Of a stretch of 43,787 nt of DNA, positions 7,936 to 37,305 are shown one piece after another. The translations under genes were made by a program, and so were the position numbers. Under the pieces are notes generated by a model. The model saw only the letters and a program-made list of their open reading frames with translations. It was not told the origin of the DNA and made no database searches. The DNA comes from Roseimaritima sediminicola (GTDB lineage: Bacteria; Planctomycetota; Planctomycetia; Pirellulales; Pirellulaceae): the NCBI RefSeq assembly GCF_009618275.1, contig NZ_WIAD01000050.1:1-43787 (forward strand), given 5' to 3'. How positions within the stretch are numbered: the stretch's first letter is position 1; the number at the start of each line of letters is the position of its first letter.

Positions 7936-10062
7936 ATGACAACGATTGATTACGCGGTGCTGGTCGGCTACTTCCTGGTCATGATTGGGATCGGGTTGTG
8001 GGCGATGCGGCGGGTGCGCGACCAGGAAGGTTACTTCATGGGCAACCGCGGCTTTGGCAAACTGCTGCAGACCTTCGCGGCCTTTGGCGCGGGCACCGGC
8101 GCCCACGAACCGGTGCAGGTGGGCAGCACGGCGTGGAGCAGCGGGTTGAGCGGCGTGTGGTCGGCCCTGATGTGGTTGTTCGTCACGCCGGTGTACTGGA
8201 TCACGGCCGTGTGGTACCGCCGCATGCGTCACCTGACGCTCGGCGATTGGTTCGTCGAGCGGTACGAGTCGCGGGCACTGGGAGCCGCGTACACGGCGTT
8301 CGCGATCGTCTTCTACATGGTTTATCTGTCGACCATGTTTTCGGCGATCGCCGCGTTCGCCGTGCCGCTGTTGGGCTTCGAAACCGGACTGTTCGGATGG
8401 GAGCTGAAGTACACGTTGGTCCCGGCGATCGCCGTGGTCGTGGTGTTGTACGGGGTGCTGGGCGGATTGACCGCCGCCTACTGGACCGATTTGATTCAGG
8501 GCCTGTTCATTATTCTGTTGTCGGTGCTGCTGATCCCCTATGGCCTGTGGGCGCTGGCCGCACGCTTTGGCGGCGAAGGCCAACGAGGCTTGATGGACGG
8601 CTTTCGGATCATGCACCAGCGGGTCTCCGAAGACCACTTCAGTTTGTTCGCCGGACCGAGCAGCGGCGAGTTTCCGATTCAGTACATCGTTTCGCTGACG
8701 TTGTTGGCGATGATCGGGATCGTCGTCCAACCGCACTTCATCGCCACCGGCGGCGGGTCGGCCAAGACCGAAGACGAGGCCCGGATCGGTCTGGTCGTGG
8801 GTAATTTTCTCAAGCGACTGTGCACCGCCGGCTGGGCGCTGACCGCTTTGATCGCGTTGGCCCTGCTGGCCGGCAGTGCCGAAATCGCGGCCAACCCGGA
8901 CCGCGTCTGGGGTGTGGCCGCTCGCGAGATCCTGGGACCGCTGAACCTGGGACTGGTCGGATTGATGTTGGCCTGCCTGCTGGCCGCGATGATGAGCAGC
9001 GCCGATACCTACATGATCGTGACTTCGGGTCTGGTGGTGCGAAACGTGTACGCCGCGTACATGAATCCCAACGCCGACGAGCGTACGTACGTTCGCGTGG
9101 GGCGTTTGACGGGGCTGGTGATCATCGTCGGCGCGGCCACGTTCGCGCTGTTGATCGGCGACGTGTTCGCTCAGTTCAAGATGGCGATGGAGTTGCCCAT
9201 TCTGTTCGCCGCACCGTTCTGGCTTGGGATGTACTGGCGGCGCGTCAACCGCTACGCCGTGTGGGGCACCATCCTGTTCTCGTTGTTGGTGTTCTTCATC
9301 TTGCCCGTGGCCGTTCCGCTGGCCAACCCCGGTTTGCGTTCGGAGCCCGCGCTGTCGACGACCACCAACGTGGTCGAGAAAACGTTCGAGCGGCCGGCCA
9401 CCGCGGCCGATGTGGCTCGCTACGAAGCCTGGCTCGAAACGGGCGGCGACGACGGTTCACGCCGCACCGGCACGGCTCCACCAGAGGCCGTCCTGGGCGA
9501 ACCGATCACCATCACGATGGTCAGCGGCGGTCAGGGAATCTACTGGCGCGAGGGCACGCGTCCGGTGGGCCGGCAGGAACGCAAATTGGTCGACGCTTGG
9601 ACCACCGACGAGGGCGATGTGCGCGTGTACCGGCAGGAAGGTCTGAAGTACGGCGTCGGCTCGTTGAACGTCGACCTGTTGATGTACTCGGCCATGGGAA
9701 TCGATCTATCGGGTGTTTCCAAAGCGACGCTGGAAACGCTCCGCTTGCCGCCCCGGTTGCTGATGCCCTTCCTGGTCCTGTTGCTGCTCAGCTACATCAC
9801 GCCGCGCGGTCATCTGGATGCGTTGACGCGGTTCTACGCCAAGATGAACACGCCCGTGTTGGCGGACCCCGAGGCCGATCGGTTGGCCCTGGAGCGAGCG
9901 TATGGCAAACCGTTCTCGTCATCCCGGCGCAAATTGTTCCCGGCGTCGGACTGGGAGTTCGTCAAACCGACGGTGAAAGACGTCGTCGGATTTCTCGCCG
10001 CCTGTGCGGTGTGCGTCATCATCGTCGGCTTGCTGATGTTCATCGCCAACATCGGCAGCTAG
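7936..10062 (+). CDS. sodium:solute symporter (SSS family)
   Basis: A 708-residue polytopic inner-membrane protein. The N-terminal segment (DYAVLVGYFLVMIGIGLWAM, then GYFMGNRGFGK) is typical of the SSS family of sodium-coupled transporters for sugars, amino acids or carboxylates. About 12 hydrophobic segments are visible. An unusually long hydrophilic stretch (about residues 470-610) separates two late membrane segments and lengthens the protein compared with the usual 450-600 residues. The frame stays open upstream of 7936, but that part overlaps the divergent sigma gene and is not conserved, so ATG 7936 is chosen. The substrate cannot be told from sequence. The convergent partner is a sulfatase gene, so sugar uptake is possible but unproven. 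The TAG stop lies 4 nt from the left arm of an inverted repeat. Confidence 0.93.
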   Translation: MTTIDYAVLVGYFLVMIGIGLWAMRRVRDQEGYFMGNRGFGKLLQTFAAFGAGTGAHEPVQVGSTAWSSGLSGVWSALMWLFVTPVYWITAVWYRRMRHLTLGDWFVERYESRALGAAYTAFAIVFYMVYLSTMFSAIAAFAVPLLGFETGLFGWELKYTLVPAIAVVVVLYGVLGGLTAAYWTDLIQGLFIILLSVLLIPYGLWALAARFGGEGQRGLMDGFRIMHQRVSEDHFSLFAGPSSGEFPIQYIVSLTLLAMIGIVVQPHFIATGGGSAKTEDEARIGLVVGNFLKRLCTAGWALTALIALALLAGSAEIAANPDRVWGVAAREILGPLNLGLVGLMLACLLAAMMSSADTYMIVTSGLVVRNVYAAYMNPNADERTYVRVGRLTGLVIIVGAATFALLIGDVFAQFKMAMELPILFAAPFWLGMYWRRVNRYAVWGTILFSLLVFFILPVAVPLANPGLRSEPALSTTTNVVEKTFERPATAADVARYEAWLETGGDDGSRRTGTAPPEAVLGEPITITMVSGGQGIYWREGTRPVGRQERKLVDAWTTDEGDVRVYRQEGLKYGVGSLNVDLLMYSAMGIDLSGVSKATLETLRLPPRLLMPFLVLLLLSYITPRGHLDALTRFYAKMNTPVLADPEADRLALERAYGKPFSSSRRKLFPASDWEFVKPTVKDVVGFLAACAVCVIIVGLLMFIANIGS

Positions 10063-10066
10063 GTTT

Positions 10067-10249
10067 TGAGCCGTTTGGGCGATAGCCCCGGTTTGTTAGT
10101 TTATTGTTGGGTGTGTCGGAAACGGCGATCCCCCTCACCCCCGGCCCCTCTCCCCCGAATCTTGACTCGCTTAGGCTCGCCAGGATTCGGGGGAGAGGGG
10201 AGAAAACGATTTCAATTTGGGGAACCGGGGCTGTCGCCCAAACGGCTCA
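10067..10249. repeat. inverted composite between two convergent genes
   Basis: The left arm 10067-10093 and right arm 10223-10249 are reverse complements at 26 of 27 positions. Both begin, read inward, with TGAGCCGTTTGGGCGA. The TGA at the outer end of the right arm (10247-10249 on the minus strand) is the stop codon of the sulfatase gene. The left arm starts 4 nt after the symporter stop. A REP-like palindrome lies between the arms at 10131-10206. A partial copy of the right arm's AACCGGGG motif recurs at 10253-10260. Confidence 0.85.
10131..10206 (+). repeat. REP-like palindrome (CCCCTCTCCCCCGAA family)
   Basis: The stem is formed by 10145-10161 with 10184-10200 (17 bp), with an inner arm of the type ACTCGCTTAGGCTCGC. 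It is preceded by CCCCCTCACCCCCGGC and followed by GGGGAGAAAA, as in the other family members at 12176, 18755, 28259, 36955 (inverted) and 37123. It occupies the centre of the inverted composite between the symporter and sulfatase genes. Confidence 0.85.
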
Positions 10250-12175: not shown

Positions 12176-12252
12176 TCCCCCTCACCCCCGGCCCCTCTCC
12201 CCCGAAGCCTGACTCGCTTAGGCTCGCCAGGCTTCGGGGGAGAGGGGAGTAA
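12176..12252 (+). repeat. REP-like palindrome (best conserved copy)
   Basis: The arms 12192-12211 and 12228-12247 are perfectly complementary over 20 bp. The 16-nt loop ACTCGCTTAGGCTCGC is shared with 10131. The left flank CCCCCTCACCCCCGG and right flank GGGGAGTAAAAA are also shared with the family. Unlike most copies it lies upstream of a gene (12384), about 130 nt before the start codon, in a divergent intergenic region. Confidence 0.9.
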
Positions 12253-12383: not shown

Positions 12384-13727
12384 ATGGTCGCTTCGCCAGA
12401 TCGTCGTTCCTTCCTGAAAACCGCCGCCGTTGCCGGGACCGCTTTGGCCCTGCCGGCGCTACAGTATTCCCGCGTTTACGGTGCCAACAGCCGGATGGGC
12501 ATCGCCAGTGTCGGCACCGGCGGCAAAGGCTGGAGCGACCTGCTGGGCGTCGCGGCCAGTCCGCACGTTGAGGTCGTCGCGCTGTGCGACATCGACAGTT
12601 CCAAAGAACACCTCGGCCGCGCCGCCGAGCGTTATCCGGCGGCCCGGCAGTACGCCGACTGGCGCAAACTGCTGGATGAGTCCCAGGACATCCAGGGCGT
12701 GCTGGTTTCAACGCCCGACTTCATGCACGCGCCGATTTCGATGGCGGCGATGCATCAGAAGATGCACGTCTTCTGTCAGAAGCCGCTGACGCATTCGGTG
12801 CATGAAGCTCGTCAGATGCGTTTGGCCGCGGCCAAGTACGACGCGGTCACGCAGATGTGCAATCAGATTCAATCGCATTCGGCGTACCGAACAGCCGTCC
12901 GCCGCGTGCACGAAGGCGTGATCGGCAAGGTCAAATCGGTTCACGCTTGGCAGGGCGGCAACCCCCGCTGGCCACGGCACCTGGCTCGGCCGACCGGCAG
13001 CGATCCGGTGCCCAGCCACGTCGACTGGGATCTGTGGCAGGGCGTCGCCCCGCGGCGACCCTACAAGGCAGACATGTACCACGCGTTCCGCTGGCGCGGC
13101 TGGCAGGACTATGGCACCGGGCAACTGGGCGATTTCGGTTGCCACATCCTGGACCCGGTCTTCAAAGCTTTACAGCTGACCGCGCCAACCAAACTGGTTG
13201 CCGAGGCGCCGGCGATGTATCCCGAGTCGTGGACCGATTGGGCGACCGTGCGGTACGTCTTTCCCGGCACGCAGTACACCGCGGCCGACACGATCCCCGT
13301 CACCTGGTACGACGGCGTCGACGTGCGGCCGCCGCGTGAAGCCCTGGGCGATGTGCCCCAGGACTACAAACTGCCCGGAGCCGGGTCGGTGTTGGTCGGT
13401 GAGAAAGGTTCGATGGTCATCCCGCACTACGCCCAACCCGTGATGTTCCCCGAAGAGCGTTTCGCGTCGCAGGATTTGCCGGTCGTCGAAAGCGTGAACC
13501 ACTACACTCAGTGGGCCGACGCGTGCCGCGGTGAGGGCAAAACGACGTCGCACTTCGACTACGCCGGACCGCTGACCGAAACGGTTCTGCTGGGAACCAT
13601 CGCGGTCCGTTTTGCCGGTCAACCGCTCGAGTGGAACGCCGACGCGGCGCAGGTCACCAACCTTCCGCCGGCCGACGCCTATGTCCGCAAGGCTTACCGG
13701 CCCGGCTGGGAACCCACCTGGGTGTAA
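12384..13727 (+). CDS. Tat-exported Gfo/Idh/MocA family oxidoreductase
   Basis: A 447-residue NAD(P)-dependent oxidoreductase of the Gfo/Idh/MocA type. The N-terminus carries a twin-arginine export signal (DRRSFLKTAAVAGTALALPA), so the folded protein is likely exported to the periplasm. The Rossmann fold follows (MGIASVGTGGKG, then VVALCDID). The usual EKP motif is QKPLTH here; its lysine, important for catalysis, is kept. The stretch around WDLWQGVAP and QLGDFGCHILDP is characteristic of the planctomycete secreted group. The frame is open 31 codons further upstream, but ATG 12384 puts the RR signal at residues 7-8 and is preferred. The 3' end overlaps the convergent SGNH hydrolase gene by 34 bp. 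Likely role: oxidation or reduction of a sugar or polyol; the substrate is unknown. Confidence 0.93.
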   Translation: MVASPDRRSFLKTAAVAGTALALPALQYSRVYGANSRMGIASVGTGGKGWSDLLGVAASPHVEVVALCDIDSSKEHLGRAAERYPAARQYADWRKLLDESQDIQGVLVSTPDFMHAPISMAAMHQKMHVFCQKPLTHSVHEARQMRLAAAKYDAVTQMCNQIQSHSAYRTAVRRVHEGVIGKVKSVHAWQGGNPRWPRHLARPTGSDPVPSHVDWDLWQGVAPRRPYKADMYHAFRWRGWQDYGTGQLGDFGCHILDPVFKALQLTAPTKLVAEAPAMYPESWTDWATVRYVFPGTQYTAADTIPVTWYDGVDVRPPREALGDVPQDYKLPGAGSVLVGEKGSMVIPHYAQPVMFPEERFASQDLPVVESVNHYTQWADACRGEGKTTSHFDYAGPLTETVLLGTIAVRFAGQPLEWNADAAQVTNLPPADAYVRKAYRPGWEPTWV

Positions 13728-16829: not shown

Positions 16830-16910
16830 TTAAGCACGTCGCAACATTTCATTCGGCTTTACTCTCTCAGTGGGAGAGTAAAGCCGAATGAAATGTTGCG
16901 ACGTGCTTAA
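16830..16910. repeat. perfect long hairpin, 37-bp arms
   Basis: Bases 16830-16866 and 16874-16910 are perfectly complementary over 37 bp, with a 7-nt loop (TCAGTGG). The outer end TTAAGCACGTCG recurs in part at 2738-2748. The inner part (ACTCTC / GAGAGT) resembles the GAGAG/CTCTCCC family. It lies between the divergent membrane-protein and sulfatase genes, so it is not a simple terminator for either. The rest of the 305-bp gap contains no gene. Confidence 0.97.
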
Positions 16911-18494: not shown

Positions 18495-18647
18495 GTTAGT
18501 TGTTAGTTGTTAGTTGTTAGTTGTTGGTTGTTAGTTGTTAGTTGTTAGTTGTTAGTTGTTGGTTGTTGGTTGTTGGTTGTTAGTTGTTAGTTGTTGGTTG
18601 TTGGTTGTTGGTTGTTGGTTGTTAGTTGTTAGTTGTTAGTTGTTAGT
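18495..18647 (+). repeat. heptamer satellite GTTAGTT / GTTGGTT
   Basis: About 22 heptamers, alternating in blocks between GTTAGTT and GTTGGTT, begin on the base after the sulfatase stop codon. Because the period is 7, the TAG in the first type falls into all three frames within 21 nt. The same array is found at 27967-28079, and its complement at 19085-19137. Confidence 0.95.
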
Positions 18648-18650
18648 TCA

Positions 18651-18702
<52 letters not shown>

Positions 18703-18754
18703 TTGTTCGTGGTTGGGCATAAACGGCGTGGCGTTCCAGGCGTTTGCGCCGGAG

Positions 18755-18832
18755 GCCCCCTCACCCCCGACCCCTCTCCCCCGCAGCTTCACTCGCTGAC
18801 GCTCGCGGCGCCGCGGGGGAGAGGGGGGAAGT
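18755..18832 (+). repeat. REP-like palindrome, GCAGC/TCGCTGACGCTCGC subtype
   Basis: The arms 18771-18784 and 18813-18826 pair over 14 bp. The loop carries TCACTCGCTGACGCTCGCGG, the subtype also found at 37123-37198. It sits in the middle of a satellite block between sulfatase and PVC cytochrome genes. Confidence 0.85.
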
Positions 18833-18857
18833 GTTGCGCAGGAATGTTGTTCTCTTA

Positions 18858-19137
18858 ACCACCAACACACCAACACACCAACACACCAACACACCAACAC
18901 ACCAACACACCAACACACCAACACACCAACCACCAACCACCAACCACCAACCACCAACCACCAACACACCAACCACCAACCACCAACCACCAACCACCAA
19001 CACACCAACCACCAACACACCAACACACCAACACACCAACACACCAACACACCAACACACCAACCACCAACCACCAACCAACAACCAACAACCAACAACC
19101 AACAACCAACAACTAACAACTAACAACCAACAACCTG
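18858..19137 (+). repeat. C-rich satellite (CACCAAC, CAACACAC, AACAACC and AACAACT units)
   Basis: This is a 280-bp array. It runs through ACACACCAAC-type units, CCACCAA heptamers, AACAACC heptamers and finally AACAACT heptamers, the complement of GTTAGTT-type units. It mirrors the left heptamer array, so the whole block from 18495 to 19137 is an inverted composite around the REP-like palindrome. It ends 37 nt before the ATG of the PVC cytochrome gene. It carries no gene. Confidence 0.93.
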
Positions 19138-19174
19138 CTTCCCCTCCTTGCCCATCCTCCCGCCTTGGTGCTGT

Positions 19175-22100
19175 ATGTGTATTCCCTTCTTTCGGTCTGA
19201 TTGCCTTCGACGGTTTCTCGCGTCGCCGGCAGGCTGGCTGAGCGTGTTGTGCGTCCTGGTCGCTTTATCGCCGGCCTTGGCCCAGCAACCGTCGTCGCGT
19301 GATCCGTCCGAGCTGCCCGCGGGCAACGAGGAAGTGGCTCGCGTGATGCGCGAGTTCAAAGGACGCGGCGAAGTGGGAGACGACTCCCTGCCGGCCACCC
19401 CCATGGAAACGCTTCGGCGGTTGTCCGTGCCCGACGACCTGCAGGTGGAGCTGGTCGCTTCCGAACCCGAGATCGCTCAACCGCTGCACGTCAGCTTCGA
19501 CTTCAAGGGCCGGATGTGGGTCGTGCAGTACCTGCAGTATCCCTTTCCGGCGGGACTGAAAATCGTTCGCTACGACCAACACCTCCGCGCCGTCTTCGAC
19601 CGCGTCCCCGAAGCCCCGCCGAACCACGTTCCGGGCGAGGACCGGGTGACGGTGTTCGAGGACACCAATGGCGACGGCGATTACGACTCGCACCGCGACG
19701 TGATCACGGGCCTGAATATTGCGACCAGCGTGGCCGTCACCCCGGAAGGCATCTGGGTGATGAACCCGCCCTACCTGCTGTTCTATCCCGATGCGGACCA
19801 GGACGCCGTGATCGACGGCCCGCCGACGGTGCATCTGAGCGGCTTTGGGCTGGAGGACACGCACTCGGTGGCCAACAGTATCCGCATGGGGCCCGACGGA
19901 TGGTTGTACGGCGTCAACGGCAGTACGACCACGGCAGCGGTCCGAGCTCCGCTGGCCGAAGATCCCCAGGCCGTCACGCCGTTTCGCGGCCAGTGTGTGT
20001 GGCGCTACCACCCGACCGGCCACCGGTTCGAAATCTTTGCCGAGGGCGGCGGCAATACGTTTGGACTGGAGATCACCGACACCGGACTGACGTTCTCCGG
20101 GACCAATGCCGGCAGCACGCGAGGCATGTTCTATCCGCAGGGCAGCTACGGGCAGAAGAGCTGGGGCAAGCACGGGCCGCTGACCAATCCCTATGCCTTT
20201 GGTTTCTTTCGGCACATGCGCTTCGAAGGCGACACGCGTCGCTTTACGCAGTCGTTCGTGGTTTATCAGGACGACGTGCTGCCGCCGCGTTACCGCGACC
20301 AGATCATCGCCATCAACCCGCTGCAGCGCTGCGTCGTCAGCAGCCACCTGCAGGAGGATACATCGACGTTCCGCACCGAGGATTTCGAGCAGACCATCGA
20401 AACCGACGACCGCTGGTTCCGCCCGGTGAATATCGCCGTGGGTCCCGATGGCGGGGTGTACTTGGCCGACTGGTACGACACGCGGTTGACGCACGTCGAC
20501 CCCCGCGACAACTGGCACAAGTCCAGCGGCCGGATCTACCGCGTGCGGCCAGCCGATACAGAGGTTGACCAGCAGACCCAGGCGGCGGACGCGTCCGGCC
20601 CCTCCTCGGCGGCACAGCCGATCGCTTCTCGAACGCGTTTCGATCTGACGGCTTTGGACCGAGCGGACCTGTTGGCGGTGCTGTCGCATCCCAGCCGCAC
20701 GATCCGCTTCGCCGGTTTGGATGTGTTGGCAACGCGCGTCGACGAGGGCCTGGACGGCGAGCTTCAACGCATCCTCGACGACGCGTCCGACCCCCGTCGA
20801 CTGGAGGCCCTGTGGACGCTCAGCCGCCGTGGAGCCTTGCGCGACGGGGCCCTGTTGGGCTTGTTGTCCGCCGAGCAATCCGACGCCGACCTGCGGCGCT
20901 GGGCCATCCGCCTGATCGGTGACCGACGTTCGGCGACCGGCGACCAAGCGGCCGCGTTGGTCGCGTTGGCCAAACACGAAACCGATCCCCGCGTCCGCTC
21001 GCAGTTGGCTTCGAGCGCCGCGCGGTTGCCTTCGCAAACCGCCTTGCCGGTGATCGATGCGATGCTTCGCCGCGGCGAAGATCTGGAAGACCTGCATCTG
21101 CCGTTGTTGGTCTGGTGGGCTCTGGAGCGTCACTGCGCTTCCGCCCCGGACGCCGTGGTCGATCTGTTCGAGGATCCGTCGCTGTGGTCCCAGCCGCTGG
21201 TCCAGGAGATCGTCGCCGGCCGGTTGATGCGTCGGTTTGCGGCGGCGGGAGAAGCGGCCGACTTCGAGGCCTGTGCGGCCCTGATGCGGCGGGCGCCGGA
21301 CCTGGCGTCCCAGGAACGGTTGATGCGTGGCTTTGAAGAAGCCTTTGTCGGCCGAGCGGTCGAGGCCCTGCCGGAGGGTTTGCGCGAACAGATCGCGGAG
21401 TATCGCGCCCAGCGGCCCGAGTCGGATCTGCCGCTGCGGCTGCGTCAGGGCGAAGCCGAAGCGGTGAAGTTGGCTCTGCGGCACATCGCCGATACGGCCC
21501 GATTGCCGGGCGAGCGGATCCGCTTGATCGAGACTCTGGGAGAAACCCGTCCACCGGCCGCCGTCGGTGCGCTTCGCAGCCGCTTGACCGGAGATCCCTC
21601 GGTAGCCGTGCGCCGGGCCGCCCTGCAGGCGCTCAGCCGGTACGAAGACCCCGGCCTCGGAGCCGCGATCGCGTCGGCCTACCACCACGCCATGGACGAC
21701 AGCAGCAACCTGCGGGAGATCGCCATCCGGGTGCTGGCCAGCCGCCCGGCCTGGGCGGATGCTCTGCTGAATGAGATCGCCGCGGCCCGGATCGCTGCCG
21801 AACGCGTGCCGCCGGACGTGGTGATGCAGATGCGCACCCTGGAGGATCCGACGCTGGACGAGCGGCTGGAGCAGCACTGGGGGACGCTGCGGGCGACACC
21901 CGAAGCCAAGCAGCGGCAGATCGCGCAGGTCCAGCAGTGGTTGGCCGCCGGCGGCAGCGGACGACTCGACCACGGCGGTAAACTGTACCAGCAGCACTGC
22001 GGCAAATGCCACACGCTGCTGGGCGAAGGCGGCAAGGTGGGGCCGGATCTGACCGGATACGAACGCACCAACCTGGCCTTCCTGGCTCATGCCATCGTGG

Positions 22101-22430: not shown

Positions 22431-22443
22431 GGGGGGGGGGGGG
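22431..22443 (+). repeat. run of 13 guanines
   Basis: An uninterrupted G13 tract in non-coding DNA between the PVC gene and the 66-bp tandem repeats. Such tracts change length by slippage in other bacteria, and they are also prone to sequencing or assembly error. Nothing shows that it controls a gene. Confidence 0.85.
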
Positions 22444-22519: not shown

Positions 22520-22878
22520 CTCCAAAGTCTGGTGACCTCGGCTACGAGCGTAGTGGCTACTTTCGGCGGAGCGAAAGGCGACACTCTCCAAAGTCTGGTG
22601 ACTTCGGCTACGAGCGTGGTGGCTACTTTCGGCGGAGCGAAAGGCGACACTCTCCAAAGTCTGGTGACTTCGGCTACGAGCGTGGTGGCGACTTTCGGCG
22701 GAGCGAAAGGCGACACTCTCCAAAGTCTGGTGACCTCGGCTACGAGCGTAGTGGCTACTTTCGGCGGAGCGAAAGGCGACACTCTCCAAAGTCTGGCGAC
22801 CTCGGCTACGAGCGTGGTGGCTACTTTCGGCGGAGCGAAAGGCGACACTCTTTAAAGTCTGGTGACTTCGGCTACGAT
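22520..22878. repeat. five 66-bp tandem repeats plus a partial sixth
   Basis: Units start at 22520, 22586, 22652, 22718 and 22784, and a partial one at 22850. They differ at a few sites (C/T in the GAC-TC part, A/G in CGT-GTGG). Each unit contains the complement of the TAGCCGAAGTCGCCAGACTTT motif and a hairpin CTTTCG GCGGAG CGAAAG. The unit length is 22 codons, and frames stay open through the array on both strands. One of them runs into the MFS gene. Confidence 0.95.
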
Positions 22879-24237: not shown

Positions 24238-24250
24238 GTGGGCGCCGATC

Positions 24251-24308
24251 GTAGCACGGCTGTCCCAGCCGTGATGGGTGTTTCTCTCGGCTGGGACAGC
24301 CGAGCTAC
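24251..24308. repeat. paired hairpins of the GTAGC-CGGCTGTCCCAGCCG family at a convergent junction
   Basis: The arm 24251-24273 and the inverted arm 24286-24308 match at 21 of 23 positions. Each arm is itself a hairpin (CACGGCT/AGCCGTG and CTCGGCT/AGCCGAG). The two mismatches between arms are compensatory within each hairpin, which suggests that the fold is kept. It lies between the convergent MFS and peptidase genes. Confidence 0.85.
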
Positions 24309-24328
24309 TATGGGAGTGGCGACTTCGG

Positions 24329-25978
24329 CTACAGGCCGAGGACGTCGACGCCTTGTTCGAAGACGACGTCGACGGGGATCCCCAGGTCGCTCAACCGATC
24401 CAGTTCGGCTTGCAGCTGGGCGCCGATCACACCCTGTTCGGCCAACAGTTTGCCGGCTCCGGCGTAGTCGCCGTCGCCCTGCAGCCGCAGCAGCACCGTC
24501 GACAACTTCTCGGTGGCTTGCTCGAGCCGCTGCATATCGACGCGGTAGTAACCGTCGTCGCCGCGCTGGAACGCACCCTGCTTTTGAAAGAAATTAAAAC
24601 GGATCATGTTGGCTTTGCCGTGGGCGCTGGAGGCGCCGAAGCGAACGCTGCGAAAGATGCCGGCCATGAACGTGACGTAGTAATCGGCCAGGTCGCCTTC
24701 GACTTCGCCTTTGGCGTGCAGCTGGGTGATCATGTGCAGGCCCAGGATGTCGGCCTTGCCTTCTTCGATCGCCGCGTAGTGCTCTTTCAAGGCTTCGCGG
24801 GCGGTCTGCGAACCGTCGATCGTGTTCTTGATGCCCAGCCCGTGTGCGACCTCGTGGAACATCGTATTGGCGAAGAAGGCGTCGAAGGTGACGTGATCGC
24901 GTTGTTCGGGTGCGATCAATTCGTCGGCGATGGGTTCCAGGATCTGATCGAATTTGGCGCGCATCGCGTTCTTCAGCTGCAAGCGGCGCGTGCCCTTACG
25001 CAGCTGGACCTGTTCGTCGTTGGGCAGGTTGATGGCGATGGTTTTTGATCCGGCGTTGCAGTCGCCGGCGTAGTAAACAACGTCGTAGGCGTTCAGTTCG
25101 GTATCGGTGCCGGGTTGTTCCCGCCTGTACTGCGGCGGGACCGGCAAACTGGCTTGCAGCTCGGGCAGGAACTGGGCGTAGTGCGCCAGCCGGCGACTCC
25201 ACTGCTTGTCCTTCAGCAACACATAACACTCGTGCGCCGTTTTGTATCCGAACAGTCTGTCCTCGTAGTTCTCGATCGGACCGATCACCACGTCGATGGT
25301 GTTGGTCTTCATGTCCAACCAAGCCAGGTCGCTGGGTTGGTAGTCGTCGGTCAGCAGCGCCTCGGCACGCAGCATCAGGTAGCGGCGCAGGCCGTTGTCC
25401 TCGGCCAGCGCCGCGGCCTCGCGCAGCAGTTCGGCGGCCCGCTGAACCTGGGGGGCGAACTGTTCGCGGTAGGGCACCACGATCAACTTGCCCTGGTCAT
25501 CGCGGCGCAGAAACGTGTACTGGCTGTCCTTGCCGCGCAGCGATGCCGCTTCGAACTCCTCGCGAGTCATGTCTTCGGGGTAGAAGTTCGCGCCGAGTGG
25601 CTTCTGGCCCACGCCGGGCAGAAAGGGTTCGTTGCCGCTTAGTCGATCCCAGGGACCGTAATTAATTTCGGCGAAGCGGCGGCCCGCCTGCGAGGGAATC
25701 GAACGCAGCAAGGCTTCCCGGTCGCCGTAGGCTTCGTACCAGAAGCAGGCGTCCATGATGTCGGCCGCTTCGATCAACAGCGGCAGCATCCGCTTTTGTT
25801 TCTCGCTCAGCGGCGACAGGTCGGCATCGAGACGCACCGTCGCGTACTGCTCAAGCCGCTGGGCAAGCGACGCTTCGGAAGGCTCGGCCGGATCCTGTGT
25901 CCAGCCGACCGTGGGCAGGAAAGCAGCGGCCAGCAGGGCGCAGCACAGCGAACGCACGGACGATTGAGTCATTTGCAT
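24329..25978 (-). CDS. secreted zinc peptidase of the M49 (dipeptidyl peptidase III-like) type
   Basis: A protein of about 549 residues with a signal peptide (SLCCALLAAAFLPTVGWTQ). Zinc site: FHEVAHGLG (HEXXH) followed about 30 residues later by EEGKAD, where M49 enzymes have EECRAD. The classical M49 motif is HEXXGH, with one extra residue, so this belongs to a shorter bacterial branch. Expected role: removal of dipeptides or similar peptide hydrolysis outside the cytoplasm. ATG 25978 and ATG 25972 are equally good starts; the frame is open to 26053 without support. The stop codon lies in a GTAGCCGAAGTCGCCA-type element. panB lies upstream on the same strand, 160 nt away, separated by palindromic repeats, so co-transcription is uncertain. 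Confidence 0.87.
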   Translation of the reverse strand: MQMTQSSVRSLCCALLAAAFLPTVGWTQDPAEPSEASLAQRLEQYATVRLDADLSPLSEKQKRMLPLLIEAADIMDACFWYEAYGDREALLRSIPSQAGRRFAEINYGPWDRLSGNEPFLPGVGQKPLGANFYPEDMTREEFEAASLRGKDSQYTFLRRDDQGKLIVVPYREQFAPQVQRAAELLREAAALAEDNGLRRYLMLRAEALLTDDYQPSDLAWLDMKTNTIDVVIGPIENYEDRLFGYKTAHECYVLLKDKQWSRRLAHYAQFLPELQASLPVPPQYRREQPGTDTELNAYDVVYYAGDCNAGSKTIAINLPNDEQVQLRKGTRRLQLKNAMRAKFDQILEPIADELIAPEQRDHVTFDAFFANTMFHEVAHGLGIKNTIDGSQTAREALKEHYAAIEEGKADILGLHMITQLHAKGEVEGDLADYYVTFMAGIFRSVRFGASSAHGKANMIRFNFFQKQGAFQRGDDGYYRVDMQRLEQATEKLSTVLLRLQGDGDYAGAGKLLAEQGVIGAQLQAELDRLSDLGIPVDVVFEQGVDVLGL

Positions 25979-26137: not shown

Positions 26138-26138
26138 T

Positions 26139-27371: not shown

Positions 27372-27977
27372 ATGAAGGTGCTTTGTTTCAGCGATTTGCA
27401 CTGCGACGCCCAGGCGGCGAAGCGGTTGGTTGACTTGGCTCGGGATGTGGATGTGGTGGTCGGCGCCGGCGACTTTGCCAATCGTCATCGCGGTCTGCCC
27501 GATACGCTGGACGTGCTGGCCGCGATCACCAAGCCAGCCGTCCTGGTGCCCGGCAACGGAGAGACGGTCGAAGAGCTGCGCGATGCGGTCGAGGCGGCTC
27601 GGTGGGCCAGCGCGACGGTGCTGCACGGCGGAGGCTGCAGCGTGGCCGGGCTGTCGTTCTGGGGCGTCGGTGGCGGGATCCCGGTCACCCCGTTCGGCGA
27701 CTGGAGCTACGACTTCGACGAACAGCAAGCCGCCGAGATGTTGGCCGGATGCCCCCAAAACGGTGTCCTGGTCGTTCACTCACCACCGCTCGATACGGTC
27801 GACCAGGATGCCGACGGCCGAGTCCGCGGCTCACAGGCGATCCGGGACGCCGTCCTGGAAAAGCAGCCGCGGCTGGTCGTCTGTGGCCACATCCACAGCG
27901 ACTGGGAAAAGCAAGTGAAGCTGGGCGAGTCGCTGGTTCTGAACGCCGGACCAAGAGGGGTGGTGGTTGGTTGTTAG
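27372..27977 (+). CDS. metallophosphoesterase (calcineurin-like, small YfcE/MJ0936-type)
   Basis: A 201-residue cytoplasmic protein with the binuclear metal site of calcineurin-like phosphoesterases: D8-x-H10 (FSDLH), GAGD at 31-34, GNGE, VVHSPP and CGHIH. The compact length suits a phosphodiesterase of the YfcE or MJ0936 kind; the substrate is unknown. ATG 27372 begins the conserved beta strand directly, and the longer open frame runs into intergenic repeats. The C-terminus (NAGPRGVVVGC) continues into the GTTGGTTGTTAGTT satellite, which supplies the last codons and the TAG stop. Confidence 0.9.
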   Translation: MKVLCFSDLHCDAQAAKRLVDLARDVDVVVGAGDFANRHRGLPDTLDVLAAITKPAVLVPGNGETVEELRDAVEAARWASATVLHGGGCSVAGLSFWGVGGGIPVTPFGDWSYDFDEQQAAEMLAGCPQNGVLVVHSPPLDTVDQDADGRVRGSQAIRDAVLEKQPRLVVCGHIHSDWEKQVKLGESLVLNAGPRGVVVGC

Positions 27978-28125
27978 TTGTTAGTTGTTAGTTGTTAGTT
28001 GTTAGTTGTTAGTTGTTAGTTGTTAGTTGTTGGTTGTTGGTTGTTGGTTGTTGGTTGTTGGTTGTTGGTTGTTAGTGGCGAGTGGCGAGTGGCGAGTGGC
28101 GAGTGGTGAGTGGTGAGTGGTGAGT
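27967..28125 (+). repeat. heptamer satellite (GTTAGTT, GTTGGTT, then GCGAGTG and GTGAGTG)
   Basis: A period-7 array starting within the last codons of the metallophosphoesterase gene. Nine or so GTTAGTT-type units are followed by GTTGGTT units, then by GCGAGTG and GTGAGTG units (from about 28078), keeping the period while the sequence changes. Stop triplets TAG or TGA occur in most unit types in all three frames. Confidence 0.95.
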
Positions 28126-28212
<87 letters not shown>

Positions 28213-28258
28213 GCGGTTGCGCCTGAGCGGTGGGGCGCGACAGGCGTTTGCGCCGGAG

Positions 28259-28335
28259 CCCCCTCACCCCCGACCCCTCTCCCCCGAAGCCTGGCTCGCT
28301 TGGGCTCGCCAGGATTCGGGGGAGAGGGGAGAAAG
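28259..28335 (+). repeat. REP-like palindrome
   Basis: The arms 28274-28293 and 28310-28329 pair over 20 positions with one mismatch. Loop and flanks match the family. It is the centre of the composite between the convergent metallophosphoesterase and FG-GAP genes. Confidence 0.88.
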
Positions 28336-28401
28336 TGTTTTTCCACGAGGAGCGTTGTCATGGCTAAGTGTCAACAACCACGAACCGCCTTTTACTACCT
28401 G

Positions 28402-28499
28402 CCAACCATCAACCATCAACCATCAACCATCAACCATCAACCATCAACCATCAACCATCAACCATCAACCATCAACCATCAACCATCAACTAACAACTA
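28402..28499 (+). repeat. heptamer satellite CAACCAT, ending in AACTAAC
   Basis: About 12 copies of CAACCAT followed by AACTAAC-type units. Read on the minus strand it is GTTAGTTGTTAGTT followed by GATGGTT units. The TAG stop of the FG-GAP gene (28497-28499, minus strand) is part of the array. The TGA in each minus-strand unit again covers all frames. Confidence 0.95.
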
Positions 28500-31400
28500 A
28501 CGTCGCCAGAAGTCGCGGAAGCGTTGTTGGCGGGTTCGCCCGGGGGCGTTCAACTGGCGGACGGCCTCGGCCTGCTCCGCTTGTTCCGGCGGCGGCGGGT
28601 AGCCGCTCATCTCGCGGAAGGGCAGCGGATCGAATTGCTGGCCGGTCAGGGTGTTCAGGTCGGCGTCCTTGTCCCAGCCGACGCTGTGCAGTACGAAGTC
28701 CCGCCGCCATCCGGGGCGCAGCGGTTCGGCCGGCAGCGAGAACTTCAGCCGGATTTCGTCCCCGGCGCCCATCACGACCATCGCGTCGTCCCACTCGCCG
28801 AGCAGCGGCAGGACGTCGCCGTAGCCGGTCAGCAGGCCGCGCAGCGGAGGCCAACGCGGCTGGGAACTGGCTGCCGCGTAGTCGTAGGTTTCGGGCAAAC
28901 GTTCGTCGTCGCGGATGCGTTTGGAAAACCCGTGCCAGGTCAGCTCCGCGCTTTCCAGACGCAGCGGTTGTTCGACGATCGGCGGCTCGGCCGGATTGAT
29001 CGCCACCGCCGCCCGGTCCCAGTAGATCTGCGCCGAGGTGCGAATGCGAACTCGCGGATCGGCCGCATTGATGTGTTCGCTCAGGTCGACCACGATCGTC
29101 TTGGTCTTGCCGCCGGGAAAGCCCATGAAGGGGATCGCTTCGCGCCACTGCTGTCCATCGGGAACCCACACCGAGGGCGGTTCGACCGCGGGCAGATCGG
29201 GGTTCTGGTCGATCTGGATATTCAGCGACGTGTCGGTGGGCAGGATCCATCCGCACAGTACCAACAGGACGCGATCGCCGTCGGCCACCTCGCCCAGATC
29301 TAGATCGATCCAGTGCGGTGGACACAGGCCCTGGCGGAGCCGCGCGTCGAAGCCTTTGACGAAGCGTTGGTCTTCGGCCGCAAGCGTCTCGCTGACGTCC
29401 CGGCCGTGGGTGTCGAGCGCTGCGTTGACGGGCCGCAGGCTGGCCGGGTCGAAGGCAAAGATCGTGTGCTGGGCGATCGAGCCGGGGCCGACCTTCTCGT
29501 TGGTAAAGATCTCGACGTCCGCGGGATGGTCCACAGCCGACAACTGGACGTGGTCGAAGTAAACGGCTTCCCACAGCTCTTCGGTAATCCGCAGCTCGTA
29601 GTGGCCATCGCGGGGAGCGACAAAGCGGCCGGGAACCTTCAGGTATTCCCAGGGGCGATCCGGTGCGACCACACCGTCGGCCAGCTGCAAACCCAACGGC
29701 GCGGCCCACAGGCAATCGGTGACGAAGGCAAACTTCTCGCCGTCCCAGGCGTACAGATATGGACAGGACCCTTTCAGGGTTTGCTCTTCGTCCAGCACCG
29801 CGTCGACCGGTGGGGCAACCGTGTTCTGGGTGATGCCGTTGGGCAGGATGGCTCGCACGGTGTCGACGCCGTCGTATCCGTCGATGCCGAAGTGGGTCGT
29901 CCGGTCGGTGATCACGCGGGCGCGGTAGTGCGGCCCAAAACGCAGCTCCAGCACCGTGCCGATGCCGTAGTGGTTGATGCGGCCGGAGTTCTCGTTGTTG
30001 TCATTCTTGCCGCGGAAACGAACGCCCAGGTAATGTCCGGCGCGGGGCGTCGTGTTGATCGCCGTCCAGACCTGGCCGTCGGCGATGCCGACCACGTCCT
30101 GCAGGCCATCGCCGTTCAGGTCGCAGGCAGCCAGGTCGGTCGTGTGCGGTGGCAGGTCGGCCTCCAGCGGCAGCGGTCGCTGGCCCCAGGGTCCGAGTGA
30201 ATAGGCCGACGCGGTCGGGGCGGAATTCTGTGGGGCGTCGTCCGAGCCTGCGGCGGGCGGCGGCGCGGTGCGGAGCAGGTTCAGCCAGGAATCGTTGTTC
30301 AAGTCGGCTAGCAAGCTGGCGCCGGCGGCGGCCTGCACTTCGGCAACCGTCGTCACGTCCACTTGGCCGGCGCCCGGGGTCTGGGTGAAGACGATCCGAG
30401 CGGCTTCGGCTCCGGCCGCGACGATGTCCCAGGACACGTCGCCGTCGACCTCCTCCAGCTGGACCAGCGACGGTTCGGCCAGCGGCGGAATGTCCTCCAG
30501 CGGTTTCCAGCGGAACTGCAAGTGCAACAGGTTTTCCAGAACCGCCACACGGCCGCTGTTTCCGTGCAGCAGCAGCACGTCCAGGTCCAGGTCGCGGTCG
30601 TAGTCGCCGATCGCGGTGGCCACGACCGGGTCGTCGGCCGGCGGCAGCGAGCTGTGCTCGGTGACTTCGAAGAAGGTCATGTTGCCGCGATTGATCCAGA
30701 TTCGCAGGCCGTCGCCGGGCGTTGCCAACAACAGGTCCAAGTCGCCATCGGCATCCAGGTCGCCGGCGGTCACGCCCGTGACCGGTCCGACCGATTCCAA
30801 GCCCGAGGGGGCGGTGGGCGGCAGCAGACGCCGGTCCTCGGCGGCCTCGTCGCGGCCGTCGATGCGAAACAGCTGGACGCCCGAGCCGCCGAAAACGACG
30901 ACGCTGGGGTAGGTCTCGTGTTGCCTGGACCGAGCCGCGGCGGTGGCGGCATCGGCATCGGGCGCAGCGGGCCGGCGCAAGCGGCCCGGTTCGCCGGCGT
31001 CGACCATGTACAGGTCCGTGATCAACACGCCGGCCGCATTCTCGGGGACTTCGGTCACGGCGAACGATTGCCACGCGGCCTCGCGCCAGCGCCACAGCGT
31101 CAGGCGTCCTGCGGCGACGGTGGCCAGATCGGTGATGCCGTCCAGGTCGAAGTCGCGGGTGGCAAAGGCGGTCGCGGAGATCGGTTCGGGGGTCGGCTGC
31201 AGCCGTAGCTCGACGCCGCCGGCGGTGTCCGGTTGTTCGCCCGCGGAGGCTTCGGCGGCCAAGCGCCGCAGGCCGTCGAAGGAAAGCAGATCGAGGGCGT
31301 TGGGGTGAGCACGTTTGCGGTCGGTGCGAACGATTTCCGTCGGTGTTAGAACGTTGCGAATCTGTTGAGCGAGGATGGCCGCGCGGGCCCAATTGTCCTG

Positions 31401-32273: not shown

Positions 32274-32301
32274 CGTTGTATCCTTCAGAGGGAACACCGG
32301 A

Positions 32302-32385: not shown

Positions 32386-32389
32386 CCGC

Positions 32390-35098
<2,709 letters not shown>

Positions 35099-35179
35099 TA
35101 GCAAACCACCTTAAAATCGAACGAGCTGTAAATGACGAGCCCATTCTAGCGATCGCTGGCGCCGCTGCGAATAGCCTTA

Positions 35180-35269: not shown

Positions 35270-35460
35270 CCAGTCAACGGCTCCCTACTGATAATGATGT
35301 AAATAAATCCTCGGGCGACGTGCAGAGACCACGCCGCGATTTTGGAATCCTAGCAGGATGTTCCGCAAACACAATGCCACTGTGGATGAATCGCCCCAAC
35401 GGCTCAGTGCTGGGAGGATGGTGCGGCGGTGAAGTATTATGGACGGACCGCACGGTAAAG

Positions 35461-35502
35461 CCCTTCCCGGTCCTGAGAGACCGACCCTCCCAGGGGGAGG
35501 GT
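35461..35502. repeat. GAGAG/CTCCC hairpin element in the leader of the SelA-like gene
   Basis: Same family as 7871-7912. The changes CCCTCT to CCCTTCCC and AGAGGGAG to GGGGGAGGG keep the pairing potential. The element ends 77 nt before the ATG at 35580. The remaining part of the 310-bp gap between the basic protein gene and 35580 shows no gene. Confidence 0.65.
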
Positions 35503-35579
35503 GATCGCGGTGTGTAGACATCAATGCCCGAGAGGGAGGGTGTCATTCCTTTCCTTCGATTCCAGCGAGAACTAGCGAT

Positions 35580-36908
35580 ATGGCGATTCCTGAATGGGCC
35601 GTCGAACAAGTGAAACGTCAACTCCGCGACGTGGCGGCCCAGCTGAAGAACCCCGAAGCGGTCCAGCAGCTGCGGGATCGCGCCGGAGAATGGCTGCAGG
35701 AGCTGCCGCAGGCGGCCCGAGAGGCTTGGCAGCAGGCGCGAGACGGAGCCCAGGCGGGGCCCGGTCGCCGTCCCGGCTCCGCTCTGGGGACGGCCGTCGT
35801 CAATGCCAGCGGCGTGTTCTACGGCGGAGCGGTCAGCGCCACACCGGTTGCCGCGGCAGCCGTTGCCGCGGGGACGGACAACCTGGCTTCCTTTCGCACC
35901 GCTCGCCACAGCTCGCGCGATTGGTTCGAGCAGGAAGCGAGCCGCGTGGCCCGGCGCGTGGGCTGTGAACGCATGCTGGTGGCCAGCGGCGTCGAAGCGG
36001 CCGTGTGGGCCTTGGCGGAAGTCGCCAAGCGGCGCCGGGCGACGGTGCTGGTGCCACGATGTTGTGCCATCGCTCTGGCCGGCGGGATGAGTCTGCCGGA
36101 ATGGTTGGTCGCCGCCGGAGCGTCGGTGCGCGAGATCGGCTCCAACGACGGACTGGACGCCGAGCAGTGGAAGCGGGCCGACGCCGGCGAGCGCGATGTG
36201 TTGTTGGTGGCCGAAGATCCGGCTCGTCTGGGCCTGGTCGGCTCGCAGGTCCAGTGCACGCTGGTCAGCCTGATTCGCGGCGCCAGCGTCGAACCGCTCG
36301 GCGGCGACGTTTCGCCCGCTCCGCCCACCTTCGCCCAATTGCTCGACGGCGCGACCGACATGGTCATCACCTCCGGCGGCGGCCTGCTGGGTGGGCCCGA
36401 GTGCGGTTTGATCATGGGCCGGCGGCCGGTGCTCGACGAGATCGCTGCGACGGAGCTGTGGTCGATCATTCAAGCCGATGCGGCCACGCAAACGATGTTG
36501 TTGGTGGCGGCCCAGCGGGCTGCGGGGAAAGCCACCGAGCGGGCGACGCCGGTCGCGGAGCTGCTGGAGACGTCGATCGACAACCTGCGACACCGCGCGG
36601 AAAACCTCTGCACCCGGTTGGCCGCCGCCGACGAATCCGACGGCGGCGTGATCCGCCGCTGCCTGGTCACCGACCGGCCCGCCCGCCTAGTCGCCGGAGC
36701 CCCCTACGAGGTCAGTTCGCGGCAGCTGCGCTTGCAGCACGTCACGCTCTCGCCGCAGAGCTGGGCGGCGCAGCTGCTGGATCAAACGCCAGCGATCTTG
36801 GCCGATGTCGACGACGATGCCCTCGTGCTGGACCTCCGCTGGGTCGACGCCGCCCAAGACGCCGCCCTGGCCAGCGCGTTGGTGGGAGGATTGCAAATTG
36901 CAAATTGA
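35580..36908 (+). CDS. SelA-like (L-seryl-tRNA(Sec) selenium transferase superfamily) protein lacking the PLP lysine
   Basis: A 442-residue protein aligned by eye to SelA-type fold-type I enzymes. VVNASGVFYGG corresponds to the INATGxVLHTNLGR region, LAGGMSLPEWLVAAGASVREIG to the GGSFRIPDVMxxAGAxLxEVG region, and PPTFAQLLDGATDMVITSGG to the segment before the PLP lysine. SelA has SGDKLLGGPQ there. This protein has S265-G-G-G268-L-L-G-G-P, so Lys (and the Asp before it) is replaced by Gly. It therefore probably does not form the usual PLP aldimine. The N-terminal 70 residues are helical and Gln/Ala/Arg-rich. The function is unknown. No selB, selD or tRNA-Sec is present. The stop TGA lies in a GCAAATT heptamer array. 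Confidence 0.82.
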   Translation: MAIPEWAVEQVKRQLRDVAAQLKNPEAVQQLRDRAGEWLQELPQAAREAWQQARDGAQAGPGRRPGSALGTAVVNASGVFYGGAVSATPVAAAAVAAGTDNLASFRTARHSSRDWFEQEASRVARRVGCERMLVASGVEAAVWALAEVAKRRRATVLVPRCCAIALAGGMSLPEWLVAAGASVREIGSNDGLDAEQWKRADAGERDVLLVAEDPARLGLVGSQVQCTLVSLIRGASVEPLGGDVSPAPPTFAQLLDGATDMVITSGGGLLGGPECGLIMGRRPVLDEIAATELWSIIQADAATQTMLLVAAQRAAGKATERATPVAELLETSIDNLRHRAENLCTRLAAADESDGGVIRRCLVTDRPARLVAGAPYEVSSRQLRLQHVTLSPQSWAAQLLDQTPAILADVDDDALVLDLRWVDAAQDAALASALVGGLQIAN

Positions 36909-36936
36909 ACATTGCAAATTTGCTGACTCCGGCGGA
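36890..36936. repeat. left arm of an inverted composite (GCAAATT heptamers)
   Basis: This arm is reverse complementary to 37235-37281 at 46 of 47 positions. Its outer part is a period-7 array (GCAAATT, GCAAATT, GAACATT, GCAAATT). The TGA stop of the SelA-like gene (36906-36908) falls within it. Inner part: TGCTGACTCCGGCGGA. Confidence 0.92.
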
Positions 36937-36954
36937 TTCTATGTACGAACAAAG

Positions 36955-37035
36955 TCGTTTACTCCCCTCTCCCCCGAAGCCTGGTGAGCCTAAGCGAGTC
37001 AGGCTTCGGGGGAGAGGGGTTGGGGGTGAGGGGGA
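36955..37035 (-). repeat. REP-like palindrome, inverted orientation
   Basis: The arms 36964-36983 and 37000-37019 pair perfectly over 20 bp. The flanks TTTACTCCCC on the left and TTGGGGGTGAGGGGG on the right are those of the family read backwards. With the forward copy at 37123 it makes a head-to-head pair inside the composite. Confidence 0.9.
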
Positions 37036-37122
37036 ATGCAGAGCAGCAGCACCATTGCCGTATCTCGAGGCGGTGCACGACCCTGGGGATCGTACGCCAA
37101 GAGCCATTGCGTTGCACCCGAG

Positions 37123-37198
37123 CCCCCTCACCCCCGGCCCCTCTCCCACCACTGCTTCACTCGCTGACGCTCGCGGCGCAGCGGGGGAGAGGGGAGAA
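37123..37198 (+). repeat. REP-like palindrome, forward orientation
   Basis: The stem is formed by CCCCTCTCCC (37138-37147) with GGGAGAGGGG (37185-37194), with the TCACTCGCTGACGCTCGCGG loop of the 18755 subtype. The left arm has CACCACTG where others have CCCGCAGC, so the inner stem is weaker. Confidence 0.85.
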
Positions 37199-37234
37199 AA
37201 CGTTGCATTCTATCGCTCCGAGCCATACATAGAT

Positions 37235-37288
37235 TCCGCCGGAGTCAGCAAATTTGCAATGTTCAATTTGCAATTTGCAGTTTGCAAT
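37235..37288. repeat. right arm of the inverted composite (AATTTGC heptamers)
   Basis: It pairs with 36890-36936 and contains one further heptamer (AGTTTGC). It ends 17 nt before the stop codon of the DUF1499-like gene, which reads in from the right. No gene lies in the 397 bp between the two stop codons. Confidence 0.92.
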
Positions 37289-37305
37289 CTCCCCTCTCCT
37301 CTTCC

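Follow-up and report, generated by a model that had tools for sequence, protein, structure and literature searches.

Why do convergent genes in a planctomycete end so often in mirror-image arrangements of short repeats, with stop codons lying inside the repeats themselves? The question is raised by a 43,787-nt stretch of Roseimaritima sediminicola DNA (NZ_WIAD01000050.1; hereafter the window), which is one contig (C131) of a 6.25-Mb genome in 185 contigs. Among the named loci returned in a comparison of its aconitase, the closest were from Roseiconus nitratireducens (78%) and a Rubripirellula metagenome-assembled genome (76%), in keeping with a probable place in the Pirellulaceae, whereas a scan with the SelA-like protein confirmed no relative. 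An earlier note on its sequence described inverted composites between convergent genes and suggested a process that builds or selects symmetric 3'-end boundaries. We consider it probable that the composites are nested deposits of unrelated small repeat families, tolerated and concentrated behind stop codons. These families are nearly absent from genes, scarce near starts and dense in convergent spacers. Apart from the central palindrome, they mostly point their heads toward the flanking gene, and the heads carry TAG, TGA or TAA, which is often the stop codon of that gene. The pattern is real and strong, extends genome-wide in the part examined, and is made of components that are each of a known kind.

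Inverted arms at convergent gene ends

Gene calls bear out the six convergent pairs that had been counted in the window (gene ends at 2691/2978, 10062/10247, 13727/13694, 24237/24329, 27977/28497 and 36908/37306), including the single 34-bp overlap at 13727/13694, and Pfam backs the names at the symporter/sulfatase, MFS/M49, metallophosphoesterase/FG-GAP and SelA-like/DUF1499 pairs. Inverted arms are real in the four spacers for which composites had been claimed, but palindromic repeats occupy all five non-overlapping spacers; the fifth (2692-2977), passed over by the earlier note, holds a palindrome and a TGAGCCGTTTAGGCG repeat (Table 1). The arms behind the symporter and sulfatase genes are 27 nt long and 96% complementary, and those in the MFS/M49 spacer (24245-24274 / 24285-24314) are 30 nt long and 87% complementary. 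Opposed arrays form the arms elsewhere, of GTTAGTT type behind the metallophosphoesterase and FG-GAP genes and of GCAAATT type, with approximate limits, in the SelA-like/DUF1499 spacer. Stop codons lie within repeats at the sulfatase, metallophosphoesterase, FG-GAP and SelA-like genes; to these must be added the M49 gene, whose stop, unremarked before, is formed by the TAG in one half of a repeat (GTAGCCGAAGTCGCC). Convergence itself is not required, since an inverted composite like those at convergent junctions stands at the tandem junction between a sulfatase gene and a DUF7133 gene (18495-19243; DUF7133 gene on the plus strand), and a repetitive extragenic palindromic (REP) palindrome (12192-12247) lies between divergent genes.

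Beyond the window, 2.34 Mb of further genome was sampled, giving 2.38 of 6.25 Mb in all (38%, in 23 stretches). Its 1631 genes come from a simple hexamer caller, whose calls within the window match the list of open reading frames and Pfam at the genes discussed. The test for arms used no family definition: the first 80 nt of each spacer (with 6 nt of the gene) were aligned against the reverse complement of the last 80, and matches scoring at least 14 were counted in spacers of 60-2000 bp only (1117 of 1608 junctions), the control being 30 rounds in which junctions of similar length exchanged partners. Inverted arms stood at both gene ends in 41/196 convergent, 15/662 tandem and 1/259 divergent spacers, against swapped means of 9.1, 3.5 and 0.0 and swapped maxima of 14, 9 and 0. 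Convergent spacers exceeded the other two kinds in all four length classes (60-150, 150-300, 300-600 and 600-2000 bp), with 14/67, 9/48, 15/57 and 3/24 compared with 5/278, 8/196, 2/146 and 0/42 for tandem and 0/27, 1/84, 0/117 and 0/31 for divergent spacers. In the 38% of the genome examined, scoring against a control, as the earlier note had proposed, thus finds the composites much commoner at convergent ends than elsewhere and closer to stop codons than under random placement. Direct-orientation matches between spacer ends were enriched too (21/196 convergent with 2.4 expected; 18/662 tandem with 1.2 expected). Palindromes of the CCCCTCTCCC kind numbered 74 in 212 convergent, 46 in 777 tandem and 4 in 261 divergent spacers of 30-2000 bp, equivalent to 1.11, 0.26 and 0.04 per kb, and none of 132 lay inside a gene.

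A congener (genome G003), whose SelA-like protein is 63% identical to that of the window, was sampled over its first 400 kb (250 genes). At the same cut-off, inverted arms were found at 11/31 convergent, 5/120 tandem and 0/32 divergent junctions, where 50 swaps gave means of 2.0, 0.8 and 0 and maxima of 6, 3 and 0; direct-orientation matches numbered three, one and none. The repeats of this genome are partly different from those of R. sediminicola. One of its frequent repeats, GTAGCATGGGCCCCCGGCCCGTG, also a GTAG-headed hairpin, has 562 matches genome-wide (at most 2 mismatches), and the 400 kb contain few period-7 arrays (two convergent, two tandem). The hairpin family termed F5 below is common to G003 (528 matches, at most 1 mismatch); matches to it occur in 15 of the 149 genomes of the family searched, the window genome and G003 included, and none was found in congeners G001 and G002.

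Repeat families and their placement behind stop codons

Frequent 14-mers resolve the arms into dispersed families, namely GTAG-type REP hairpins, a TGA-headed repeat (F6), a miniature inverted-repeat transposable element (MITE) with a TA/CTAG target (F7) and period-7 arrays, which stand around the central palindrome (F8). The arms do differ by locus, as had been observed, but they are members of families that share one placement habit rather than arbitrary sequences. With patterns defined in this analysis and set mismatch limits, the sampled genome holds 236 copies of F1 (CAGTGGCATAGGCTTCCAGCCTGTGA), 130 of F3 (AGTGTCGCCTTTCGCTCCGC), 132 of F4 (AGTAGC[AT]CGGCTGTCCCAGCCG), 191 of F5 (CCGTAGCTGAAGTCGCCAGACTTTGG), 78 of F6 (TGAGCCGTTTGGGCGATAGCCCCGGTT), 86 F7 ends (TAAGCACGTCG) and 119 copies of the tail half of F8. 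Between 0 and 6 copies of each family other than the REP palindrome lie in genes (6/191 for F5, 0/132 for F4).

A hairpin with a TCC loop is common to F1, F3 and F4, and the form GTRG-C-N7-TCC-N7-G with all 8 pairs occurs 280 times, versus 0 in the reversed sequence. The F5 form, GTAG-C-N7-GCCA-N6-GG, is present in 148 copies (44 distinct), and the F4 form, AGTAG-C-N7-TCC-N7-G, in 81 (15 distinct). Stem pairing lay above all 200 shuffles in F5 (0.889 vs a shuffled mean of 0.794, 44 distinct), F4 (0.833 vs 0.674, 15 distinct) and F1 (0.773 vs 0.648, 11 distinct), and not above every shuffle in F3 (0.549 vs a mean of 0.493 and a maximum of 0.580, 32 distinct). Read head-first, F5 shows many G-T and few A-C cells, and it is on the head-first strand, the one transcribed downstream of a stop codon, that the F5 and F1 hairpins pair best. 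F4 and F5 are palindromes of 20-40 bp with GTAG at one end, are intergenic with convergent or unidirectional neighbours, and lie near 3' ends, as GTAG-type REPs do; the consensus heads of F1 (GTGG) and F3 (GTCG) set these two outside that type. Same-family inverted mates were present in 17 of 50 convergent spacers with F5 and 7 of 28 with F4, and single copies in 31 and 15.

Placement is tied to the stop codon. As descriptive counts, the F5 head falls exactly on a stop 18 times, and 5 times more in a second frame (offset -4); the F7 end does so 15 times, with none at offsets -150 to -1; F4 and F6 heads do so 6 and 3 times, and 36 F1 copies lie within -3 to +7 nt. When the distance from each gene to the outermost repeat was compared with random placement within the same spacer (repeat-holding spacers only), gaps of at most 3 nt made up 0.33 of 272 convergent 3' ends (0.08 simulated) and 0.28 of 172 tandem 3' ends (0.04 simulated), versus 0.05 of 172 tandem 5' ends (0.04) and 0.01 of 90 divergent ends (0.02). 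Gaps of at most 20 nt at 5' ends were below chance (tandem, 0.10 vs 0.25; divergent, 0.01 vs 0.11). The repeats thus keep close to stops and away from starts. No anchoring to stops was seen for the central F8 palindrome. A repeated 12-mer stood within -4 to +25 of the stop at 229/396 convergent and 175/669 tandem 3' ends (spacers of at least 60 bp). TGA was used as the stop at 0.15 of convergent and 0.20 of tandem ends with a repeat within 7 nt, compared with 0.39 in genes without spacer repeats, a difference that was not used as evidence because it is expected if repeats supply TAG or TAA.

The layers have a usual order from the gene inwards, with the F5 hairpin outermost, followed by the period-7 array, the REP flank and the central REP palindrome: F5 stood outside arrays 17 times versus 8, arrays outside the REP flank 30 versus 2, arrays outside F8 35 versus 0 and the REP flank outside F8 43 versus 2. 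Orientation was summed over F1 and F3-F7 with the middle third of each spacer excluded. Forward and reverse heads numbered 110:9 (convergent), 206:39 (tandem) and 13:2 (divergent) in the left third, and 17:98, 10:40 and 8:23 in the right third, so that, whatever the kind of spacer, heads are mostly turned toward the flanking gene. Among single copies of F1, F3, F4, F5 and F7 in tandem spacers, 61/72 were head-out and only 45/72 sense, which indicates that gene direction is not the whole of the orientation rule; F6 singles in tandem spacers were head-out in 12/13.

The MITE F7 (79-173 bp, ends TAAGCACG...CGTGCTTA) has terminal inverted repeats and TA at both ends, and is represented by 34 paired copies and 18 single ends. 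The pre-insertion site was CTAG in 16/34 and YTAR in 25/34 of the paired copies. Twelve of the 34 sit on a stop codon, where 3.7 would be expected if the TAs of stops were hit like other intergenic TAs with the same four letters, an excess that may be overstated, given that promoters, from which copies may be lost, form part of the background. One of the suggestions made before, that insertion is targeted to stop codons, has direct support in this family. The codon before insertion at these 12 copies was TAG in seven, TAA in four and TAC in one, and the family's own YTAR/CTAG preference partly explains why 11 of the 12 were stops already; at ends away from stops, 49/59 also have R at that place (both ends of an element counted). 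The present codon is TAA at all 15 stop-anchored ends.

Of the tandem arrays, 41/56 in convergent, 38/79 in tandem and 6/18 in divergent spacers have period 7, compared with 4/163 in genes. The units are diverse (GTTRGTT, GATGGTT, GAGATTT, GCAAATT, GGCGAGT), and G-quadruplex-type runs of at least three G were not seen in the common units, which hold GG at most (unit list, by eye). Among arrays of period 6-8, those no more than 20 nt from a convergent stop were sense in 25 cases and antisense in 3, and those nearer the downstream start in tandem spacers were antisense in 24 and sense in 3. The longest array in the convergent list, a 43-copy TAGCGAG heptamer (C97:239774-240372), starts at a stop codon.

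Table 1. Repeats of the window and their relation to neighbouring genes
Feature	Position	Strand	Remark
F6 TGAGCCGTTTAGGCG repeat fused to F7 TAAGCACGTCG MITE end	2721..2747	+	29 nt behind aquaporin-family (MIP) gene
REP-like palindrome CCCCTCTCCC..GGGAGAGGGG	2851..2907	.	fifth convergent spacer
F6 repeat, TGA head	10067..10093	+	4 nt behind symporter stop
Central REP-like palindrome, CCCCTCACCCCC tail (F8)	10131..10200	.	
F6 inverted mate	10223..10249	-	its TGA 10247-10249 is the sulfatase stop
Complete 79-bp F7 MITE	16830..16910	.	between divergent genes; family elsewhere on stops
Composite at tandem junction	18495..19131	.	GTTRGTT array 18495-18648, REP palindrome 18757-18826, inverted arrays to 19131
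F4 GTAG-type REP GTAGCACGGCTGTCCCAGCCG, head out	24250..24271	+	
F4 inverted mate, head out	24288..24309	-	
GTAGCCGAAGTCGCC, half of F5 GTAG-type REP	24318..24332	-	TAG 24329-24331 is the M49 stop
(GTTAGTT/GTTGGTT)n array	27966..28070	+	starts within metallophosphoesterase gene, includes its TAG (27975-27977)
Central REP-like palindrome (F8)	28260..28329	.	
(GATGGTT/GTTAGTT)n array	28403..28501	-	includes FG-GAP stop (TAG 28497-28499)
(GCAAATT)n array	36890..36920	+	overlaps SelA-like gene end and stop (TGA 36906-36908)
Double REP-like unit	36923..37248	.	flank CTGACTCCGGCGGA 36923-36936, palindromes 36964-37019 and 37138-37194, inverted flank 37235-37248
(GCAAATT)n array, inverted	37251..37288	-	end 18 nt from DUF1499 gene

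Several further features of the window stand apart from the convergent pairs. The complete F7 copy forms an 81-nt near-perfect palindrome (16830-16910) and is the sole genome match to a short exact pattern. Behind the DUF7133 gene, a minus-strand tandem array (22522-22877) with a 66-bp step alternates six F5-like with five F3 units, and a run of 13 G (22431-22443) could be a slippage site or a weak assembly point. A long repeat composite of CGCTAGCCCACGGTT and TCGCGAAGCGA words (40780-41170) occupies a tandem spacer between genes that are both on the plus strand.

Weighing the explanations

In the explanation that we favour, insertions in coding DNA or promoters would be lost to selection, and an insertion at a stop codon that retains or supplies a stop would be kept. 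F7 would insert at TA, best at CTAG, and its end would restore TAA; this target and this restoration would make amber and ochre stops ready targets. GTAG-headed REPs would act alike by bringing their own TAG. A convergent spacer offers two facing 3' ends, at which two head-out elements would produce an inverted composite, and the mates would often belong to one family where copies cluster or arrive as doublets. Fixed head-out orientation and same-family clustering would thus yield inverted pairs with no need of a symmetry builder. Any effect on the host, whether through a 3' RNA hairpin, end protection or termination, would be secondary and is hypothetical, as is any function ascribed to the composites.

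Several points weigh against this explanation. F7 is threefold over its target expectation, and targeting or selection beyond use of the motif is also needed. A partner transposase for F7 was sought only as DDE_3 of the IS630 type, which returned one 55-aa fragment, and beside that fragment stand only words like the F7 end with mismatches. Seven Y1_Tnp loci (flanks of about 1.5 kb, shorter on one side of one locus) had none of the families beside them apart from two F5 copies, at distances of 1.0 and 1.1 kb. F6 singles were head-out in only 3/8 in convergent spacers (5 in) and 2/6 in divergent ones (4 in), tandem-spacer arrays of period 6-8 that lie closer to the 3' end of the upstream gene were divided between 16 sense and 12 antisense, and head-out orientation near start codons is unexplained by selection on transcripts. 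Gene calls outside the window come from our own simple caller. Finally, the families were picked after their clustering at stops had been seen, so that the counts by stop offset are descriptive and not independent evidence, whereas the arm test and the congener are independent of family choice. Mobilisation by a resident Y1 transposase was rejected, there being no link between the seven loci and the families. A replication-strand bias was likewise rejected, with 13 forward and 13 reverse F5 copies in the 400 kb of G003.

A bolder form of the explanation, possible though we hold it doubtful, is that several unrelated families independently evolved stop-bearing ends and a habit of landing on or just behind host stops, which would make the termination site a general safe harbour, with F7 targeting the stop in CTAG and restoring it as TAA.

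Among the rivals, the one that survives best holds that the composites are functional 3'-end modules, in which selection maintains a hairpin or GU-rich array behind stops for bidirectional termination, protection of mRNA ends or ribosome pausing, and mobile repeats are the raw material. Such modules would be anchored at stops and not at starts, as the repeats are, and the strand on which the F5 and F1 hairpins pair best is the one expected; the number of 3' ends with a repeated 12-mer near the stop also speaks for them. So does the congener, in which the orthologues of several window genes have other repeats on or close to their stops. In G003, the stop of the SelA-like gene is the TAG of an F5 copy, the head of a GTAACATGG repeat starts 1 nt behind the sulfatase stop, a GTAGCATGGG repeat lies about 9 nt after that of the FG-GAP gene, and the TAG that ends the metallophosphoesterase gene belongs to a GTAG word (a candidate repeat), with a piece of a known repeat about 25 nt further on.

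Against such modules, orthologous ends (57 or 66 pairs, depending on the filter) agree poorly between the two genomes. Across 66 ends, occupancy was 10/23 versus 13/43 (odds ratio 1.8, p 0.21), which in this small sample is not significant; convergent orthologous ends gave 5/7 versus 5/7, also a small sample; and a hairpin at the stop in one genome was not predictive of one in the other (1/5 versus 14/52, again with few cases). Although the samples are small, the lack of a significant correlation speaks for turnover in tolerated places rather than need at each site. About two in five convergent ends (167/396) have no repeat near the stop. Intrinsic terminators (a GC stem with a T run) were also sought between 10000 and 29000, where 17 terminator-like sites were found against a shuffled mean of 15.2, one of them the F6 arm at 10075-10091, and in the 30 REP palindromes (of 132) that were inspected by eye no T run stood behind the stem. 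Intrinsic termination thus finds little support, and bidirectional intrinsic terminators were rejected on this chance-level count in 19 kb of the window. We consider functional modules improbable.

Less probable still is pure truncation, in which an element falls at random into a gene tail, the gene then ends at the first in-frame stop inside it, and the way genes are called produces the anchoring as an artefact. That F5 ends genes in a second frame as well, and that the SelA-like gene reads into its array, would be expected of such a process. It is contradicted by F7, which has 15 ends on stops and none in the 150 nt before them, so that the out-of-frame insertions into gene tails that truncation would leave are unseen, and by the 11 F7 sites that were stops before insertion. 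In addition, five orthologue pairs that have an element on the stop differ in C-terminal overhang by -6 to +5 residues.

Least probable, by a little, is local symmetry making, in which one arm would be a copy of the other, whatever its sequence, made when replication switches template at the central palindrome: arms do differ between loci, and the outermost family is identical on both sides above expectation (46/94 convergent, 12.9 expected; 37/84 tandem, 11.0; 7/14 divergent, 2.0), but direct matches are enriched alongside inverted ones, the left-hand arrays at 18495-19131 and 27966-28501 do not match their right-hand counterparts in the order and composition of their units (by eye), and the arms are family members present at many other places. 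The symmetry-building process suggested at the outset is not supported: heads also point outward when unrelated junctions are compared, as they do in tandem and divergent spacers, and a locus-level symmetry builder was rejected by the direct-orientation control.

Nested deposits behind stop codons therefore remain the reading we prefer. They offer a countable case of mobile DNA that uses stop codons as safe harbours, with several kinds of repeat under one placement rule, different repeats at the same gene ends in two related species and, for one MITE, a readable codon from before the hit. They also carry a caution, namely that an inverted repeat where two genes converge is not necessarily a terminator.

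Comparison with known repeat systems

In Nostoc, small hairpins (small dispersed repeats) are reportedly embedded in tandem heptamer arrays, a description credited to Elhai in 2008. Composites of this kind in planctomycetes were not noticed among the top-ranked open-licence literature. The closest known counterparts of the hairpins are the GTAG-tagged REPs. REPs are found for the most part between genes that converge or run in one direction; in two genomes the majority of those between convergent genes stand within 20 bp of both 3' ends, and GTAG ends often furnish the stop codon (BMC Genomics 2013, PMC3733652). F4, F5 and the G003 family resemble this superfamily in their GTAG head, short hairpin, intergenic position and use of TAG as a stop. 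Unlike the GTAG REPs in that account, several families coexist here in one genome, layered in order with TGA-headed and TAA-ended repeats; F1 and F3 depart from the GTAG head; and no Y1 transposase locus flanked by the families was found, although a RAYT gene flanked by its own repeats (a REPtron) is not required of every REP genome. As with REPINs, inverted REP doublets may be the mobile unit, but mate spacing varies here, other families are nested between the mates, and singles are frequent, which differs from REPINs (PMC3116915).

The period-7 arrays recall the heptamer arrays of Xanthomonas and Nostoc, which downstream of genes follow the coding strand, in most cases no more than 50 bp from the stop and in some overlapping it; ahead of genes, the non-coding strand predominates (PMC4692102). 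The arrays here share the period, the intergenic location and the coding strand near stops and non-coding strand near starts; they differ in having many units, versus one G-quadruplex unit there, and in often forming inverted arms round a REP palindrome. F7 has its counterparts in MITEs with CTAG/YTAA and TA targets, MITEPsy1 (PMC3189936) and the pneumococcal RUP (PMC2229807), with which it shares terminal inverted repeats, TA at both ends and a preference for CTAG. It differs from both in that about a third of its paired copies lie on stops, with TAA restored, and in having no intact partner in DDE_3, the sole family searched. Hugging of stop codons is thus a known habit of such repeats, which here is unusually strong and common to several unrelated families; what sets the present case apart is how the components are combined, together with a MITE that hits stops and turnover of repeats at orthologous gene ends.

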